DNA from: a virus
DNA length: 23,089 bases
Virus record (IMG/VR): IMGVR_UViG_3300038403_000005
Location: 1 to 23,089 of that record
Direction: 5' to 3' (one strand)
Shown: positions 16,073 to 23,089 of the stretch, piece by piece
Numbering within the stretch: the stretch's first letter is position 1
Layout of the letters: each line of letters starts with the position of its first letter
Translations under genes and position numbers: made by a program
The notes under the pieces: generated by a model
The model's input: only the letters and a program-made list of their open reading frames with translations
Databases searched by the model: none
Told to the model about the DNA's origin: nothing

Positions 16073-16245
16073 CCCAAGGTCTCGTTGCCGAGGGCCGACA
16101 GGATGGTCGATTCCCGGCCGGCGCGTCTGCGTTGAAGTGCTACGGACCGGCGTTTTGCCTTTCTCTGCGCCTCGTCATCCGGCAGCGGCATGACCGGCTG
16201 CGGCGGCGGCTGGGGAACATCAGGGGAATGGAAGAGACTAGCCAT
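16069..16245 (-). CDS. Small phage protein encoded between terminase and portal (58 aa)
   Basis: The protein begins MASLFHSPDVPQPPPQPVMP and continues with an acidic turn, a basic Lys/Arg/Ala helix and the segment RRAGRESTILSALGNE. This arrangement (short hydrophobic start, poly-proline, charged helix, 'R.GR.STILT/S') is a well-known feature of small conserved proteins near portal genes in many tailed phages, function unknown. The ATG lies 8 nt inside the terminase gene, with AGGAGG 10 nt upstream. The stop overlaps the next ATG as ATGA. Confidence 0.8.
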   Translation of the reverse strand: MASLFHSPDVPQPPPQPVMPLPDDEAQRKAKRRSVALQRRRAGRESTILSALGNETLG

Positions 16246-18919
16246 GGCTCATCAACCTCCTTTTGCGCTTCATGATAACCCGTGGGCGGTTTCTTTGCAT
16301 TCTAGCATCGGCCCATTGGATGGCGGCAGTCTTCTCCCGCGGGCCGGCGTACCAGGACATGACGACGGCGTCGGCATGGTTGGTCGACCGCCCCAGCCTT
16401 TCCGTGACCTTGTCCTTGGGCTCGACCTTGATCCCGTTCGGCGTGATCTCGAAGGTCGGCGCGGTGAGATCAGCAACCAGGACGGTATCGTCCGGAAGCG
16501 CGATGGGCGACCCTCCGGGTTGTCCAGGATCCAAAGCCTCGCGGAACCCCCAGTAGGCGGCTGACCGGACGTTCGTGAAGCCCAGCTTCTTGTCGGAAGT
16601 CCGCTTGGTGGACTTCTCCGCACCCTTGTACGGGTAGAGCTCGACCCCGTTCTGTTTCAGGTGATCGAAGGTCGACCCACCGTAGCCACCGCCCATGTCG
16701 ACCACGACCAGGCAGTTATCCTTGCGGTGAGTGATGATTACCCCAGCGGAATAGGGGCCGATATTGTCCATCGGGATGTCCTGACCCTCCACCACGATCA
16801 AAGGGGAGTACCAGCCGTCATATCGTGGTGCCAAGACCAGCGGGTCTGTTCCACCTCCGGAGCAATCAATACCCATAGCGCACATCGGTACGTCGGGATG
16901 CTTGTCGGTCCAGCGTTTCTGTGCCTGCCGTATCCAAGCCGTAGGGATGACCTGGTTGTGCTGATCCCGCAGAACCGTCTTGAACCGACCCAGCAGGATC
17001 GATCGATACGGCTCGATCATCGCGTCAAGCTGCGCCTGATAGCCCGTGGTGGCCAGATACGGGTTGTCCGACACCGACGCCGGAATGAAGGTCCGCGAGG
17101 TCGGCTGGACCTGTTTGCCGCTGATCAGTACCGGTTCGGGTCCGTCGACCCACCTGTCGTTGCCGCGCTCGTCGGTGACGACCCAGCGCAGTTCCCCAGG
17201 TTTGGCCGGATGCGGATGCTTGTCGTCCAGCCACGGGGCGAACATCTCCATGACCCAAAGACCTTCCGCGCTGAGCGGAGGGTTGGATGCGATGACGACC
17301 CGCTTTCTCTGATTTGGCTCGACTGACCGCAACCAGCCCATGAGGAAGCGGACCTGCGCGTAGCTGAACTGTGTCCCTTCATCCAGTCCGAGCAGGTCAT
17401 GCGGGTTGCCTTGCCAGTGTTCCTCGTCACCGGCGCGTGCCGCAGCTCCGAGGTCGATGACGCGGCCGTCCTGACGCTTGAGTGACGGGGGCGGCTGCCC
17501 GTTGTAGCCGTCGCGCCCGCCATTGAATCGCAGCAGCTCTTCAATGATATGGCCTAGATCGGTGTACTGCCGGCGCATGATGAGCGAGCGTCGGTGAGCA
17601 GTCAGGGCCAAGCCGAGCAGAAGTGAACTGTTGTGGGTCGGGATCATCGACCGGCCTGCCAAGTAGCAATGCGATGGAGAATCGACTTGAATGCACTGCA
17701 TCGGTACTGGATCAATCGGCTCGCATCCGACGATATAGCGCACGTCGTGTGTGCCGCGGAATCCAGAACGTTTCTGGCGTATAAGTTTTCGCGGAAGCTT
17801 GAAGGCAGGAAGGTCGGTCATAAACTTCAGGCGCCATTTATTACTGATAGTACGGCCATACAGTGTGGCTTTTCCTTCTCGCATTTGGGCCTTGATACCG
17901 AGCGAACTTAGTAGCTCATGCACTCCATCAATCAGTTCCTTTCGTGTGAGTTGGATTTCGCACTGACCGCGCTTGTCGCAATATCCGTCCGTATCCATCA
18001 AACCCTGAAGCAGCGAAAGTCGCTGATCCATGGACGCCCTGAGATAGCTGGGAGGAATGTGTTTGTTGCCGAATACGCCTAGTTGTTTAAGTTTGGTTTG
18101 TAACCCAATTACCCCACGAGCGTAGGGGGACGCATAGCGGTTTACCGTATATCCGCCTGCTTCAACTTGACGAAATACTTCATCGTCGATACCTGCTATC
18201 GAGCCCCCTTTTGATGTCCCATCGCCAAGCCAGGCGCCAAGTACGTAAGGATCAATAAGCAATTCGACATAGGGCAGATTCAAAGCACCGGCAACAGCAA
18301 CAGCATGGTTTAACCCACCGTCATACCGCCGTATAGTTTGTGCGATCTCAGCTGTAGTCTTAACTGAAAAGGTCGATAGGGTTTTCGGCTGCGCTGTTTG
18401 AGCATTGCGCAATGCCAGATCTGGGCGCTTCCCTGTGCCCCTCTTAGGGCGTGTCTCGCGACGCTTTGCCCGCCACTCATCGGTACATTTCAACGCACGC
18501 ATACGTTCTGCGCGCGTGCTGGTGATCCACTGATGTTGAGGATCAGCAACTATCTGAGAGCCATCAGAGAACTTCAGCAGATACGCTTCCCCCTTAAATA
18601 TCGGAGATTTGGCAATGACATTGCATGGTGTTCCGGCTTCATCAAACACTTGATCGCCAACGGTCAGCTCCCCCATTGTGGAGAATCCTGTTGGCGTTGG
18701 TATTAACTCATTGATTTCTAACGCTTTTCCACCACCAGGCTCGCCCCCGTACAGCAGAACATCCGCCTTGGAAAAGTAGGCTTGCGTCTGTGGACCGGGG
18801 TTCGGGATCCACGGGATAGACTGCCTCGCCTCTAGCGCCTTCTTGGCGACTTCTTCGTACTTGTCCTTGGGCATCGCTCCCAGGCGGGAGACGATCTCAT
18901 CCAGGGCTGATTGGCTCAA
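16238..18919 (-). CDS. Terminase large subunit, interrupted by an in-frame intein (893 aa precursor)
   Basis: The ATPase-nuclease motor that packages DNA through the portal. The N-extein ends in Walker A (YGGEPGGGK, residues 57-65). After the 365-residue intein (66-430) the motif resumes with SS. Walker B is LLGLDE (509-514), and the coupling motif is VVIASNPP (541-548). The C-terminal RNase H-like nuclease has MGIDCSGGGTD (Asp685), VVVDMGGGYGG (Asp741) and NHADAVVMSW (Asp850), the expected three acidic residues. The C-terminus is basic (IMKRKRRLMSHG). After splicing the protein would be 528 aa, within the range of podovirus terminases (T7 gp19 is 586). The start is TTG, overlapping the previous stop as TTGA. 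The next in-frame ATG is residue 16 and lacks a well-placed ribosome-binding site. Without splicing the ATPase site would be destroyed, so the intein must be active if the gene works. Confidence 0.93.
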   Translation of the reverse strand: MSQSALDEIVSRLGAMPKDKYEEVAKKALEARQSIPWIPNPGPQTQAYFSKADVLLYGGEPGGGKALEINELIPTPTGFSTMGELTVGDQVFDEAGTPCNVIAKSPIFKGEAYLLKFSDGSQIVADPQHQWITSTRAERMRALKCTDEWRAKRRETRPKRGTGKRPDLALRNAQTAQPKTLSTFSVKTTAEIAQTIRRYDGGLNHAVAVAGALNLPYVELLIDPYVLGAWLGDGTSKGGSIAGIDDEVFRQVEAGGYTVNRYASPYARGVIGLQTKLKQLGVFGNKHIPPSYLRASMDQRLSLLQGLMDTDGYCDKRGQCEIQLTRKELIDGVHELLSSLGIKAQMREGKATLYGRTISNKWRLKFMTDLPAFKLPRKLIRQKRSGFRGTHDVRYIVGCEPIDPVPMQCIQVDSPSHCYLAGRSMIPTHNSSLLLGLALTAHRRSLIMRRQYTDLGHIIEELLRFNGGRDGYNGQPPPSLKRQDGRVIDLGAAARAGDEEHWQGNPHDLLGLDEGTQFSYAQVRFLMGWLRSVEPNQRKRVVIASNPPLSAEGLWVMEMFAPWLDDKHPHPAKPGELRWVVTDERGNDRWVDGPEPVLISGKQVQPTSRTFIPASVSDNPYLATTGYQAQLDAMIEPYRSILLGRFKTVLRDQHNQVIPTAWIRQAQKRWTDKHPDVPMCAMGIDCSGGGTDPLVLAPRYDGWYSPLIVVEGQDIPMDNIGPYSAGVIITHRKDNCLVVVDMGGGYGGSTFDHLKQNGVELYPYKGAEKSTKRTSDKKLGFTNVRSAAYWGFREALDPGQPGGSPIALPDDTVLVADLTAPTFEITPNGIKVEPKDKVTERLGRSTNHADAVVMSWYAGPREKTAAIQWADARMQRNRPRVIMKRKRRLMSHG
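17630..18724 (-). mobile_element. Class 3-type intein with LAGLIDADG homing endonuclease in the terminase Walker A site
   Basis: This 365-residue insertion begins ALEINELIPTPTGFSTMGEL and ends CYLAGRSMIPTHN before Ser+1. Residue 1 is Ala, so the usual Cys/Ser first nucleophile is absent. Instead the three residues that define class 3 inteins are present: Trp66 in block B (ADPQHQWIT), Cys344 in block F (MQCIQV, where most inteins have Asp) and Thr363 in block G (IPTHN). In this class the block F Cys starts splicing, and terminal Asn365 cyclises after the penultimate His364. Between the splicing halves lies a LAGLIDADG endonuclease with both motifs, VLGAWLGDGT (Asp168) and LLQGLMDTDG (Asp246), both acidic residues kept. 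Its DNA is visibly more AT-rich than the flanking extein, a sign of separate origin. The endonuclease would cut intein-free terminase genes and so spread the element. Confidence 0.92.
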
Positions 18920-19812
18920 ATGTCGAACACCCCTGGGCGAATGCTAACCTTTACATCGCCGTCTTGGCCGTTCGGCTTTGCCTTCTTGCGGCGCTTGTAC
19001 TTGCGCTTGACCTTGGGTTCCACGAGTGGCGCGGACTGGATGGCCTTGAACGTGAAGTTCGTCAATGCCGGCACCGCAGGTGGCTCAAGGAACTGCTGGT
19101 CCTGCGATTGCCCAGCCCACGTGCCTTCCGACCATGACATGTCGTCCAATGCACCGCGCAGGAATTGGGCTTCCTGGGTCGATGCGTTGACCTGATTGGT
19201 GGCATTGGCTAACCGTGCTTCAAGTTCGCTGCGTCGTGCCCGTATCTTGGCCCGCATGTGATCGAGCTCGGAAATGCCATACAGGTACGATGGCCGGAAC
19301 AGGTCGGACTCGTAGGGAATGCCAACCTCGATGCCGTTTGCCTTGGCCAACATCGCGAAGAACCAGCAGCCTGGACGCTGTAGCATGTATTCCTCGGTGG
19401 CAGCCATATCCACGCCCCACAGACCGATGGAGTCCTGCGCGTCATCCTTGCGCGTCCCGCGGTCCTCCAGGATGGCCTCGATCGCCATGGCGAACATCCA
19501 TGACAGACTGGACGTGAAGAAGTAGGGTCCATACTTGTCGACCAACGGCTTCCACGGCAGGACAACACAGTTCGGAATCTCCGGTCGCTGTTCGTTCATG
19601 AACACGGGTCCGGGAAACTTTGCCATCCACTGGCAATATTCCGGGCTGAACCACGGTTGCCCCGGCTCATAGCGGTGCAGCTCGAACCACACGTCCATGC
19701 GGGCGGCGATGCCGTAAACACCTGGAGAGCAGCCCCAGATTTGCCAGTCCTTCGAGCCGTATGGCGCGAGTCGGATGGATGCTGGGGCGGAACCGATCAA
19801 AGCTATTCGCAT
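18916..19812 (-). CDS. Conserved phage protein beside the terminase, Rossmann-like N-terminus (298 aa)
   Basis: The N-terminus MRIALIGSAPASIRLAPYGS then DWQIWGCSPGVYG looks like a first beta-strand plus glycine loop of a Rossmann-type fold. This is the kind seen in conserved phage proteins distantly reminiscent of DUF115-type sugar or nucleotide enzymes. Further blocks are WFELHRYEPGQPWFSPEY, YGPYFFTSSLSWMFAMAIEA and DSIGLWGVDMAATEEYM. From about residue 185 a helical stretch (MRAKIRARRSELEARLANAT) leads to a linker, and residues 270-281 are strongly basic (KVKRKYKRRKKAK). The role is unknown. Position between the endonuclease and the terminase, and the basic tail, suggest a link to packaging or DNA. 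The ATG overlaps the end of the HNH gene by 10 nt, with GAGGGA as ribosome-binding site inside that gene. The stop overlaps the terminase TTG. Confidence 0.8.
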   Translation of the reverse strand: MRIALIGSAPASIRLAPYGSKDWQIWGCSPGVYGIAARMDVWFELHRYEPGQPWFSPEYCQWMAKFPGPVFMNEQRPEIPNCVVLPWKPLVDKYGPYFFTSSLSWMFAMAIEAILEDRGTRKDDAQDSIGLWGVDMAATEEYMLQRPGCWFFAMLAKANGIEVGIPYESDLFRPSYLYGISELDHMRAKIRARRSELEARLANATNQVNASTQEAQFLRGALDDMSWSEGTWAGQSQDQQFLEPPAVPALTNFTFKAIQSAPLVEPKVKRKYKRRKKAKPNGQDGDVKVSIRPGVFDI

Positions 19813-20288
19813 TCTACATATCCCTCATGTAATTCTCGTTTGGCCTTCAGGTAAACCTGTTGTGCCTCCTTTTTGCTGGCAAATGTCCCTAAGTGAATGG
19901 CATCAATTCTTGCTCTAAAGCGATTTCCATTTGGATTCGGACTAACACCAAGGATCCCGGTGCGACTATTACTCTTGGCCTTTCGTTTGTTCTGATTGTT
20001 AATCCTCCATGTAGTGTCGCGAAGATTTGCGATTCTGTTATCTGTCGGGTTGCCATTCTTGTGGTCGATAATTCCAGTTGGCCATTTTTCATGCACATAT
20101 AGCCATGCCAATCGATGTGCACGGTGAAGTTCGCCAAACACTTTTATCTGTATTGGCCCTCCAACTCGGGTAATTGTTCCAGCAATCTGCCCTATCCTGA
20201 TTCGTCGATTCGGCTTGATGCGCCACCTAAACAACCCTGTCTCAGGGCTATATTGCAATGCCGCTTTCAGCATTGTTGCCGTTAGCAT
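19803..20288 (-). CDS. Free-standing HNH homing endonuclease with AP2-type DNA-binding domain (161 aa)
   Basis: The HNH nuclease core spans about residues 55-100: HRAHRLAWLYV, then IIDHKNGNPTDNRIANLR with His76 and the Asn residues that hold the metal and loop, and Asn100 further on. Residues 108-155 form an AP2-like domain (TGILGVSPNPNGNRFRARI, HLGTFASKKEAQQVYLKAKR) that would recognise DNA. This domain pair is common in phage homing endonucleases. The gene is clearly more AT-rich than its neighbours. It has an excellent ribosome-binding site (AGAGGAGGAAC), part of a 10-bp direct repeat also found at the end of the preceding gene. It overlaps the next gene by 10 nt. It probably cuts at or near this locus in phages lacking it and spreads by gene conversion. 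Confidence 0.9.
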   Translation of the reverse strand: MLTATMLKAALQYSPETGLFRWRIKPNRRIRIGQIAGTITRVGGPIQIKVFGELHRAHRLAWLYVHEKWPTGIIDHKNGNPTDNRIANLRDTTWRINNQNKRKAKSNSRTGILGVSPNPNGNRFRARIDAIHLGTFASKKEAQQVYLKAKRELHEGYVECE

Positions 20289-21488: not shown

Positions 21489-21649
21489 CAGCCAGCCGCC
21501 GTGTCTTGAACGGGTCGCATGCGTGAGTGACCGCCGTAGTTGAGCTTGGCCCACTCCTCGAACGGCATGGGAGCTTCACCCCTGGATTGCTGGTCGACAA
21601 CGTATTGGTTGTACGCCTTGCGAGCCTGGATGATGGTTGCCGGGTCCAT
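21488..21649 (-). CDS. Small hypothetical protein coupled at both ends (53 aa)
   Basis: An ATG overlapping the stop of the DUF5681-type gene (TGATG) opens a frame of 53 codons that ends with TGA overlapping the next ATG (again TGATG). The protein starts MDPATIIQARKAYNQYVVDQ and contains MPFEEWAKLNYG near residue 28. This 'F.EW......Y' pattern is frequent in short phage helper proteins. The exact overlaps at both ends and the lack of any other coding frame in this gap support it. It could assist the terminase small subunit or simply be a conserved accessory gene. Function unknown. Confidence 0.7.
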   Translation of the reverse strand: MDPATIIQARKAYNQYVVDQQSRGEAPMPFEEWAKLNYGGHSRMRPVQDTAAG

Positions 21650-21975
21650 CAGTGCAGGGATTCGTGCTCGACTTCCTGGGCGGCACCCGCCAGCAGGAAT
21701 GCAATGGAGCGAGCGACTTCGAGCGTGTTCGACGTGTCGAACAGCTTTTCACCGTCCTTGCCGGTGAGTTCGGTCATCTGGATTGGCTTACCATAAGCAC
21801 GGTCCAGCAATCCGAATGCTGCGGTGACACGTACTGCCGCAGGAGCTTTCTTGTTGCGCATGATCTCGATCACTGTCTCGATCGACTCTCGCGTGACTCG
21901 TTGCGCCATCCTGCGCAGCGGTGAATCTTTCGGTCTGCCGCCGGGATTGCCTGATTGGCCTGGCTGGAATGCCAT
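21649..21975 (-). CDS. DUF5681-type protein, candidate terminase small subunit (108 aa)
   Basis: The N-terminus FQPGQSGNPGGRPKDS is the signature of DUF5681-type proteins ('F.PGQSGNP.GRPKG'), often found at the start of phage packaging modules. A helical body follows (RMAQRVTRESIETVIEIMRN, then VRVTAAFGLLDRAYGKPIQM) of the kind used for DNA recognition. I infer a DNA-binding packaging role, most likely the terminase small subunit, though the large subunit is about 2.7 kb downstream rather than adjacent. ATG at 21975 follows GGAGAAAGG. It is the first gene of the long operon, directly after a control region with a promoter candidate and inverted repeats that might include its binding site. Confidence 0.7.
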   Translation of the reverse strand: MAFQPGQSGNPGGRPKDSPLRRMAQRVTRESIETVIEIMRNKKAPAAVRVTAAFGLLDRAYGKPIQMTELTGKDGEKLFDTSNTLEVARSIAFLLAGAAQEVEHESLH

Positions 21976-22034: not shown

Positions 22035-22052
22035 ATGTTCCATGTGGAACAT
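22035..22052. promoter_or_regulatory. parS-like palindrome (ParB-site look-alike)
   Basis: ATGTTCCATGTGGAACAT has 8-bp perfect arms around a central TG. The inner 16 bases, TGTTCCATGTGGAACA, differ at one position from the chromosomal ParB site form TGTTCCACGTGGAACA used by pseudomonads and relatives (general consensus TGTTNCACGTGNAACA). It lies between the promoter candidate and the first packaging gene. Without evidence of ParB binding, it could also be an operator for another dimeric regulator. Confidence 0.55.
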
Positions 22053-22054
22053 AT

Positions 22055-22117
22055 GCGGTGCCAATGCCACACGGTATGTTATTCCGGTTTCTCTCCGGAC
22101 ATGGGCACTGGCACCGC
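22055..22117. repeat. 63-bp interrupted inverted repeat with nested hairpin
   Basis: GCGGTGCCAATGCC (22055-22068) pairs with GGCACTGGCACCGC (22104-22117) over 14 positions with one mismatch, a G-U wobble in the minus-strand RNA. Inside, TCCGG (22083-22087) pairs with CCGGA (22095-22099) around a 7-nt loop. There is no T-tract, so a terminator is unlikely. In the operon mRNA it would be a large leader structure. As DNA it could be a terminase, replication or recombination site. Confidence 0.65.
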
Positions 22118-22129
22118 CACTACAATCCT

Positions 22130-22157
22130 ATTCTCTGCCAAGCCGTTGAAATGTCAA
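22130..22157 (-). promoter_or_regulatory. Candidate sigma70-type promoter of the packaging/late operon
   Basis: On the minus strand TTGACA (22157-22152), a perfect -35 consensus, is followed after 16 nt by GAGAAT (22135-22130), which matches four of six -10 positions including the key A at position 2 and the final T. It lies immediately after the cassette-like attC site and upstream of the first packaging gene, so the transcript would carry the inverted repeat and the parS-like sequence in a leader of about 150 nt. Confidence 0.5.
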
Positions 22158-22162
22158 GTTGA

Positions 22163-22215
22163 TGCTAACGCTGCGTTAGACCGGACGCTTCGCGCCGCTG
22201 ACTTCCGCGTTAGGT
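22163..22215 (-). repeat. attC-like recombination site 2
   Basis: On the minus strand this 53-bp segment opens with ACCTAAC, a match to the integron R'' box (RYYYAAC), and closes with GTTAGCA, resembling the R' box (GTTRRRY) but off at its last two bases. CTAACGC and GCGTTAG pair over 7 bp at the ends. Inside, CGGCGC and GCGtCCG form a 6-bp stem with one extra-helical T and a 3-nt loop. Paired outer boxes plus an inner stem with a bulged base is the folded attC plan. The stop codon of the preceding ORF is inside the first box, as is usual for gene cassettes. Confidence 0.6.
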
Positions 22216-22398
22216 GTCTTTATCAACCGCCTGAGACACCTTTGGTTCAAGGTCGTCAATCATCAACCCAAGGTTTTCCATTATGCTGTCTCGCCGCTTC
22301 TTGTTTGGGTTTTCAAAAGCATTTACGGCACGCATCATTTGCAGCATTGCGCGGCAAAGCTGTAAGTCACTGAGATCGCAGTATTCTTGTTCGGTCAT
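22210..22398 (-). CDS. Small acidic helical protein, second ORF of a cassette-like unit (62 aa)
   Basis: The protein begins MTEQEYCDLSDLQLCRAMLQ and is helical and charged, ending EPKVSQAVDKDT. The only family-like feature is the general look of short proteins from integron cassettes and phage accessory regions. The TAA stop falls inside the ACCTAAC box of an attC-like site, the normal end of a cassette gene. ATG at 22398 is 10 nt after the previous stop, and the GGGGTTGAT stretch before it could act as a weak ribosome-binding site. Function unknown. Together with the preceding ORF it would be one two-gene cassette or two fused cassettes. Confidence 0.6.
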   Translation of the reverse strand: MTEQEYCDLSDLQLCRAMLQMMRAVNAFENPNKKRRDSIMENLGLMIDDLEPKVSQAVDKDT

Positions 22399-22408
22399 AT
22401 CAACCCCG

Positions 22409-22582
22409 TTAGGCCACTTGATCCTGTAGCACCACAGTCGCCCCCAAAATCTTGAAATCGCCGCGCTCTATTTCTGCTATGTATTCGTCTGGAGATTTTA
22501 TATCAGGCCGTGGATTATCCGGGTCATTCATAATTTCGTCCCAGTTGTTTCTTATTTGCTTTCGGCTCATAAACAAGTACAT
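22409..22582 (-). CDS. Small protein of unknown function, first ORF of a cassette-like unit (57 aa)
   Basis: The protein starts MYLFMSRKQIRNNWDEIMND and continues with PDEYIAEIERGDFKILGATV, a mixed alpha/beta pattern without signal or membrane segment. I chose ATG at 22582 because AGAGAGG lies 6 nt upstream and the start follows the attC-like site by 14 nt, the usual short leader of cassette genes. An open extension to 22669 would translate the attC-like sequence itself. Internal Met5 is an alternative start. The stop TAA is within GCCTAAC, the same box that holds stops in the neighbouring cassette-like units, but no paired GTTRRRY box follows here. Function unknown. Confidence 0.55.
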   Translation of the reverse strand: MYLFMSRKQIRNNWDEIMNDPDNPRPDIKSPDEYIAEIERGDFKILGATVVLQDQVA

Positions 22583-22596
22583 TGGTGTCCTCTCTG

Positions 22597-22661
22597 GCCT
22601 AACACGGCCATCAACCGGCCAGTCCAAACGCGCGTCGCGCTGGTCAACCTTTGTGTTAGGC
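22597..22661 (-). repeat. attC-like recombination site 1
   Basis: On the minus strand this 65-bp segment runs from GCCTAAC (RYYYAAC, R'' box) to GTTAGGC (GTTRRRY, R' box), both exact matches. The outer 9 bases (GCCTAACAC/GTGTTAGGC) pair perfectly. Inside, GACCAG and CTGGCC pair with one mismatch around a CGCG-ACG-CGCG stem, giving the nested imperfect hairpin that integron integrases recognise on the folded single strand. The preceding ORF ends with TAA inside the R'' box, and the next ORF begins 14 nt after the R' box. This is the clearest attC-like element in the window. Confidence 0.7.
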
Positions 22662-22874
22662 GCCTTCACGCCACGGCACCGCCAGCGTCCAAAGAACCCG
22701 GCGCATCCTCAGCATCTCGCGGCGGCTCATGTCTCGCGGTATCACAACCTGGGCAAGCCATCCGCCGTCGAGAACAATCGGAATCGCCAGCCCTGGTCGC
22801 GGCTTGGGTGACACCGCTGGCGGCTGCGAGGCAGAATGGTGCTTAGTCCGTCGATTTCCCATTTTAGGTGCCAT
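22656..22874 (-). CDS. Small protein of unknown function ending in an attC-like site (72 aa)
   Basis: The protein begins MAPKMGNRRTKHHSASQPPA with a basic, disordered start. It then has LAIPIVLDGGWLAQVVIPRD, followed by MSRREMLRMRRVLWTLAVPW. This 'IP..L.G...A...IP.DM...E..R....L..L' pattern is common in short bacterial and phage proteins of unknown role. ATG (22874) is 4 nt after GGAG and overlaps the end of the truncated sialic-acid-synthase frame by 11 nt. The TAA stop lies inside the GCCTAAC box of attC-like site 1, as expected for a gene cassette. Two in-frame Met codons (residues 1 and 5) are possible starts. Confidence 0.65.
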   Translation of the reverse strand: MAPKMGNRRTKHHSASQPPAVSPKPRPGLAIPIVLDGGWLAQVVIPRDMSRREMLRMRRVLWTLAVPWREGA

Positions 22875-23089
22875 TGCGCTCCGCCCGCAAACTGACCGAT
22901 GCCGATTCGCTTTGGACAGGTCCATAGTGGACTGTACCAATCGCCTCATGCGCCCGGCGACATTCCATCACCAGTGTCTTGAACTCCTGCGGTTCGAGCG
23001 CGAAGTGGGAGTCCAGACCGCCGTCGTTTCGATCGAGCGTGATGTGCTTCTCGATCATGCAGGCCCCGAGTGCTACGGCCGCCACGGAC
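22864..23089 (-). CDS. Sialic/legionaminic-acid-synthase-type (NeuB family) gene, 3' end only, lacking the SAF domain
   Basis: The frame enters from the right edge and stops at TAA (22866-22864), giving the last 74 codons of a larger gene. VAAVALGACMIEKHITLDRN and DGGLDSHFALEPQEFKTLVM are the end of the NeuB TIM barrel. The His of EKH and the His of DSHFALEP correspond to the metal ligands of the family, so the visible part of the active site is intact. Such enzymes condense phosphoenolpyruvate with N-acetylmannosamine or related sugars to make nonulosonic acids for surface glycans. After YGPVQSESASVSLR the protein ends AERNGT, where family members usually continue with RRSL and an antifreeze-like SAF domain of about 60 residues. 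The gene is therefore truncated, or belongs to a short variant. It could modify host surface sugars, or be bacterial DNA next to a prophage. Confidence 0.85.
   Translation of the reverse strand, partial: SVAAVALGACMIEKHITLDRNDGGLDSHFALEPQEFKTLVMECRRAHEAIGTVHYGPVQSESASVSLRAERNGT

Follow-up and report, generated by a model that had tools for sequence, protein, structure and literature searches.

Two segments that share the plan of integron attC sites lie upstream of the packaging genes of a phage genome, and the question they raise is whether they bound an integron-type cassette there and how a phage would come to own one. The window analysed here, meaning the whole stretch of DNA under study, is one complete IMG/VR record (IMGVR_UViG_3300038403_000005; 23,089 bp), which is classed as linear and is therefore probably a fragment. 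Judged from sequence, our comparisons support reading the two segments as attC sites of the integron type, which in this phage enclose a unit of cassette size and foreign composition. The explanation we hold to be likely is that the segment represents a CALIN (at least two close attC sites with no intI nearby, as found in the window) in a tailed-phage genome, in which two integron-type attC sites of the same polarity flank one 446-bp cassette carrying two small genes; the cassette would occupy a variable slot, with neuB on one side and the packaging genes on the other, and would presumably be exchanged by a host integrase.

Boxes and open reading frames (ORFs) lie where the initial annotation had placed them, and its observation holds overall. 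Site 1 (22163-22215, plus strand, 53 nt) runs from an R'' box TGCTAAC (22163-22169) to an R' box GTTAGGT (22209-22215), with crossover predicted between G22209 and T22210; site 2 (22597-22661, more likely plus strand, 65 nt) runs from GCCTAAC (22597-22603) to GTTAGGC (22655-22661), with crossover predicted between G22655 and T22656. The paired RYYYAAC...GTTRRRY boxes claimed for both are perfect at site 2, the only strict 7/7 box pair in the window, where pairing extends to 9 bp; at site 1 the first box does not fit RYYYAAC and its two outermost bases are unpaired, so that its R'' is imperfect. L'' and L' boxes at the proper distance and with polarity are found at both sites by a box-and-pairing score that leaves the central loop free. 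The box cores CTAAC/GTTAG number six in 22165-22655 and ten in the remaining 22.5 kb.

Proof does not come from general attC covariance models, with which both sites are weak and neither gives a significant match. The general training drew on known-polarity sites from class 1 plasmid arrays and from two integrons, one borne by a Vibrio phage and the other in a Shewanella prophage. A first general Infernal model (R1) gave 15.2 bits at site 2 (E=0.21) and 8.7 bits at site 1 (E=5.7), and on published phage attC sites it gave 19-21 bits for TJE1 and 26-29 bits for MW202573; a second (R2) did not list site 2 and returned site 1 at E=5.9. Under the box-and-pairing score trained on the same class 1, Vibrio and Shewanella sites, site 2 reached 24.0 bits, a value attained by none of 200 dinucleotide shuffles (top 23.8), and the top score in 445 kb of related phage DNA was 15.6. 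Site 1 reached 12.9 bits on the plus strand, which is expected about 0.1 times per window and is not significant alone under this bacterial-trained score.

Models built from viral sites separate both segments from their background. With 110 viral attC sites, part of them found by a pattern taken from site 1, site 2 scored 33.1 bits and site 1 30.4 bits, with the next best at 5.6. As a control for this circularity we retrained on 63 array neighbours anchored by neither of our search patterns, themselves still pre-picked by a loose general attC score; site 2 then scored 32.8 bits and site 1 24.1 bits, against a background maximum of 16.9 in 445 kb. Compared with true sites under this score, site 2 lies in their range and site 1 between their minimum and 5th percentile. 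An Infernal model of 68 viral attC sites (R3), which shares the bias of the larger training set, gave site 1 at E=1.9e-4 and site 2 at E=0.22, and thus site 2 was never significant with Infernal under R1, R2 or R3. The initial annotation had staked its reading on an attC covariance search and on the related phages. The search gives a divided answer, with nothing significant from the general models and site 1, not site 2, significant with the viral one; relatives of the phage lack the 57- and 62-residue ORFs between the sites altogether, rather than carrying them without paired boxes.

The L'-R' half of site 1 is nearly identical to an attC type found in other viral contigs. A pattern of 17 fixed bases from this half, run on viral contigs, returned 14 matches: 11 clear attC sites of one 57-nt type, one cut by a contig end (L090) and two unrelated. 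Two of the 11 contigs (L082 and L085) are identical at the site and may be one phage. Most contigs with the 57-nt type carry further attC sites of other types nearby, up to nine per array, and the type adjoins different genes in most of them. Terminase genes of different kinds are present in G002, G005, G007 and G010, and portal genes in G002, G007 and G010; in G007, a phage contig of 62 kb, an array of six attC sites takes a central position and is flanked by DNA polymerase and terminase genes. A second pattern, not derived from the window, found 46 stretches, many with one-polarity arrays of up to eleven attC sites. The L boxes of these phage arrays are GC-rich and GGAC-rich. The 57-nt type has one partial match among annotated phages (MW202573) and none among plasmids. 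The closer kin of the window phage are another matter: its terminase has relatives at 42-62% identity in 27 other viral loci, and no significant array was found among these except in distant L061, whose terminase is 44% identical. There, two low-scoring attC-like sites of one polarity lie at 1565-1885, about 8 kb upstream of the terminase, with genes running against them.

No integron integrase (TIGR02249) was matched in the window record, a fragment of a phage whose remainder could hold intI, and none scored above the family cut-off in 30 other array-bearing or related viral records. With no intI in the record, the locus lacks what defines a complete integron, intI with attI.

In these arrays the genes run mostly against their attC sites. 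At the 57-nt sites a start codon, in most cases accompanied by a ribosome-binding motif, stands just outside R'' and reads away from it. When direction was called by choosing the better ORF between neighbouring attC sites of the same polarity, arrays from the first pattern gave 21 antiparallel, 6 parallel and 4 undecided genes, and control integrons 32 parallel, 1 antiparallel and 5 undecided (Fisher p=7e-10); these counts and those that follow rest on a simple ORF score, non-independent contigs and few control records. Arrays from the second pattern gave 41 antiparallel, 15 parallel and 18 undecided, the parallel ones including all five calls in L126. This 7-kb IMG/VR contig, with six attC sites and with five parallel genes whose products are small and mostly membrane proteins, resembles a bacterial integron array rather than a phage, and some IMG/VR records may thus be host DNA. 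With a Shine-Dalgarno sequence and ATG required and both sets pooled, 52 genes were antiparallel versus 3 parallel, a strict call to be read beside the looser 32:1 of the controls. A set of 52 antiparallel cassette proteins includes DNA methyltransferases as well as relatives of each of Mom, dATP/dGTP pyrophosphohydrolase, HNH endonuclease, RNA ligase and NinX, and many have no assignment. Cassette genes are co-directional with neighbouring phage genes in G007, G010, L116 and L132.

Certain cassettes appear to have moved as units. G005 and L114 share one whole cassette unit (688 bp at 93%) with ends 7-9 bp from R', L116 and L150 share another (433 bp at 84%) with ends 7-16 bp from R', and two common pieces in G004 and G010 together cover one unit with outer ends 3-10 bp from R'. 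From the alignments, these three whole-unit blocks are the pattern that cassette exchange would leave, whichever enzyme performed it. Most other blocks common to two contigs do not end at crossover points, and this is one reason to weigh a different account, in which the attC-like hairpins are RNA or DNA elements of the phage, such as transcript ends or processing sites, that have lost, or never had, the role of integrase substrates, the arrays having spread by homologous or illegitimate recombination. Genes antiparallel to their sites are unlike integrons, the records lack integrase, and the hairpins sit between co-directional genes, all of which would fit such elements. However, sites that otherwise differ greatly within one array retain both the polarity and the letters that matter to an integrase (AAC and GTT), the three shared blocks are whole units, no terminator-like sequence was found at the two window sites, and phage attC sites elsewhere are active (PMC9892861). 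We consider it unlikely that the hairpins are such elements, and we retain the reading of the locus as a cassette between integron-type sites.

If the sites are attC, their polarity decides where the cassette ends. The annotation rightly gave both sites one orientation, to which the viral models assign the plus strand; the polarity it chose, judged by these scores, is probably reversed, with both sites reading on the plus strand and the genes on the minus strand. Site 1 prefers plus by 14.5 bits with bacterial attC training and by 17 to 29 bits with viral training, its other strand scoring 4.5 bits in the viral model. Site 2 prefers plus by a mere 0.2 bits with bacterial and by 14 to 15 bits with viral training, its other strand scoring 17.6-18.9 versus 32.8-33.1 bits. 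In the 63-site model the margins are 15 bits for site 2 and 20 bits for site 1 against a true-site minimum of 18.9, which leaves site 2 somewhat weak. The opposite choice, real attC sites of minus polarity bounding a parallel cassette at 22169-22602, has the textbook look in its favour: ORFs stop within CCTAAC, and a start codon follows 14 nt past site 2. It also draws on the first general model, which gives site 2 its 15.2 bits on the minus strand versus 13.5 on the plus strand, and on the implied R' of site 1, GTTAGCA, which occurs in a real attC (dfrA12). Against it stand the margins at both sites and the other phage arrays, where a like gene layout goes with clear opposite polarity, and we regard it as quite improbable.

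Because both sites score higher on the plus strand in the viral models, the unit first drawn at about 22169-22602 (434 bp) becomes a predicted mobile cassette at 22210-22655 (446 bp, plus strand) between the two crossover points, with its genes antiparallel to the attC sites and thus without the parallel arrangement of a canonical cassette. The cassette size that the annotation noted is retained. The interior (22217-22596) has 45.8% GC, which falls in the bottom 0.5% of 380-bp windows taken from the phage part (59.6% overall), whereas the attC sites have about 62%, so that composition shifts at the sites. Both ORFs lie on the minus strand. The 62-residue ORF (22210-22398) ends in the reversed R' of site 1; the 57-residue ORF (22409-22582) has an ATG preceded by GAGGA, 14 nt from the box of site 2, and is the ORF noted as starting at that distance. 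Together with the 72-residue ORF adjoining site 2, both stop at a TAA within CCTAAC, a context found at no other listed ORF end in the window (the nearest is CCTAAA, at neuB). The claim that these stops fall inside RYYYAAC boxes is correct in the minus-strand reading; in the plus-strand reading the boxes concerned are reversed R'. A search of viral contigs, species genomes, plasmids, phages, Pfam, PHROGs and NCBIfam found no relatives of the 57- and 62-residue proteins, so that the window cassette itself is not seen elsewhere.

The stop of the 57-residue ORF lies in a lone GTTAGGC box (22408-22414, plus strand), which may be what is left of a third site where two cassettes fused, as its sequence would allow. 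We did not adopt it as an attC remnant, for the half-site before it lacks statistical support. In fused gene cassettes, too, a box separates two ORFs of the same unit (PMC4670013); unlike these, the window offers a bare 7-bp box without such support. An operator-type palindrome CTAAC-N-GTTAG, also present in L019, was likewise dropped as a common element, with three cases in 1.3 Mb.

Could the sites be chance inverted repeats between ordinary small phage genes? The failure of the general models to reach significance would allow it, a 7/7 box pair by itself is no great rarity in 23 kb, and the folding energies of the single sites (z -1.0 to -2.7) are unremarkable and do not discriminate. Yet two sites of one polarity 382 bp apart, each above the 445-kb background with the viral models, together with the clustering of box cores, the CCTAAC stops and the shift in composition at the sites, make coincidence very improbable.

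The last rival places the locus at a junction of phage and host DNA, as a prophage beside or in a chromosomal integron or as a misassembly. The window is a fragment of a podovirus or tailed-phage genome, with nearly all genes on the minus strand and with a large terminase carrying a LAGLIDADG-type insertion, a head-tail connector (portal) and virion genes. Its upstream end holds the 3' part of a neuB-like gene (22864-23088, minus strand; Pfam NeuB E=4.5e-17), truncated at the point where its relatives enter their C-terminal SAF part. Next comes the 72-residue ORF (22656-22874, minus strand; 62.6% GC), which stops inside the reversed R' of site 2; of the three small proteins searched for, as the annotation had advised, it alone has a relative, 66% identical in phage contig L019. 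On the packaging side the first gene is a DUF5681 gene (21649-21975, minus strand; Pfam DUF5681). In L051 a full-length neuB, one gene and then a syntenic DUF5681 gene follow in the same order as in the window, and nine related phage contigs have a neuB-like gene upstream of the terminase. Because of this neuB/terminase order, the L051 synteny and the phage relative of the 72-residue gene, the cassette lies inside a phage genome. The suggestion that the phage sits at an integron locus therefore falls, as neuB, the 72-residue gene and the packaging genes are phage genes and the record has no integron integrase; although the record is a fragment with a truncated neuB end, the array in the middle of G007 argues in the same direction, and we reject a junction with a host integron as the least probable reading of all.

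Several further features of this neighbourhood deserve mention. In related phages a CMP-sugar synthetase-like gene is paired with neuB upstream of the packaging genes (L051, 4654-6327), which suggests that these phages make a nonulosonic acid. The 893-residue terminase ORF (16238-18919, minus strand) holds a LAGLIDADG/homing-endonuclease stretch that is absent from most related terminases, its frame reading GGEPGGGKA...THNSSLL, which gives the appearance of an intein interrupting the Walker A motif. An HNH endonuclease with an AP2-like domain, typical of free-standing homing endonucleases, adjoins the terminase region (19803-20288, minus strand). Between site 1 and the packaging genes, a consensus scan placed a promoter-like site TTGACA-16-GAGAAT just past site 1 and directed toward those genes (22130-22157, minus strand). 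A long imperfect inverted repeat with a smaller hairpin inside, GCGGTGCCAATGCC...GGGCACTGGCACCGC (22055-22117), could be a regulatory or packaging-related structure, and the leader RNA folds at -62 kcal/mol. Rfam and tRNA scans gave no matches. In the leader ahead of the DUF5681 gene lies the palindrome TGTTCCATGTGGAACA (22036-22051), which we take to be one base off a parS-type palindrome and which is a possible ParB-like or regulator site.

Contrary to what the annotation had implied, cassettes in a phage have a precedent. Qi et al. 2023 (PMC9892861) described 17 CALINs in phages and showed attC sites of TJE1 and others to be active with IntI1. The window and the arrays described here resemble those in being attC clusters without integrase, with small genes and with methyltransferases among the cargo, and MW202573, which carries part of the 57-nt type, is one of the records in that work. 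Its annotated genes are on the plus strand and our attC calls on the minus strand. Unlike the window, cassettes of TJE1 and PH101 are oriented as in bacteria, with divergent sites in other phages, and that paper describes neither a general antiparallel layout nor a cassette pool shared by phages. The phage sites share with the class 1, Vibrio and Shewanella arrays the paired R and L boxes, the spacers, the extra base in L'', the variable loop and one polarity per array; they differ from them in their antiparallel genes and their GC- or GGAC-rich L boxes, and the window record in having no intI. In insertion at attG outside integrons (Loot et al. 2024, as cited in PMC12901181) attI is not needed for a single cassette to enter a genome, and by that account one attC is left per cassette, whereas the window has attC sites on both sides. 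The searchable literature, outside which lie most subscription papers and all preprints, yielded no paper on a prevailing antiparallel layout or a phage-shared cassette pool. Within it, phage attC arrays, phage integrons and IntI1 activity are already known (PMC9892861), and a mostly antiparallel phage cassette pool is apparently new.

How such cassettes would reach a phage can be outlined from these features. We infer that an integron integrase of integron-bearing hosts would recombine the folded bottom strand between the G and the TT, and that cassettes would thereby be excised, inserted and exchanged between phages infecting such hosts. With less confidence, we suggest that the antiparallel layout may arise if a phage retains a cassette only when it reads along the phage operon, a filter that would separate phage cassettes from the parallel cassettes of bacteria. 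Where the polarity of an array is fixed relative to the operon, the antiparallel cassettes might be those that are expressed, and they might be silent behind the promoter of a host integron. Excision in Vibrio rises when the attC bottom strand is on the lagging-strand template (PMC11023631); such a gain for phage arrays would depend on fork direction.

The broader proposal, which we put forward at about even odds, is that tailed phages of different kinds own a common pool of cassettes, accessory genes (for methyltransferases, Mom, dATP/dGTP pyrophosphohydrolase, NinX, HNH and small proteins of no assignment) with antiparallel attC sites that host integron integrases exchange during infection, and that the reversed polarity isolates this pool from the cassettes of bacteria and perhaps puts the strand that recombines in a position where it is single-stranded more of the time. 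The dozens of phage contigs with reversed-gene arrays suggest that gene exchange among phages draws on a cassette pool private to them. If true, integron-type recombination would be a working route of gene exchange between phages rather than a rare accident, and any virome could be searched for its recognisable mark, attC arrays whose genes are reversed. Part of phage mosaicism would then be tied to a site-specific mechanism, and there would be a test for how anti-restriction and other accessory genes of phages travel. The proposal would also bear on the origin of cassettes and on why bacterial cassettes are nearly always parallel to their attC.
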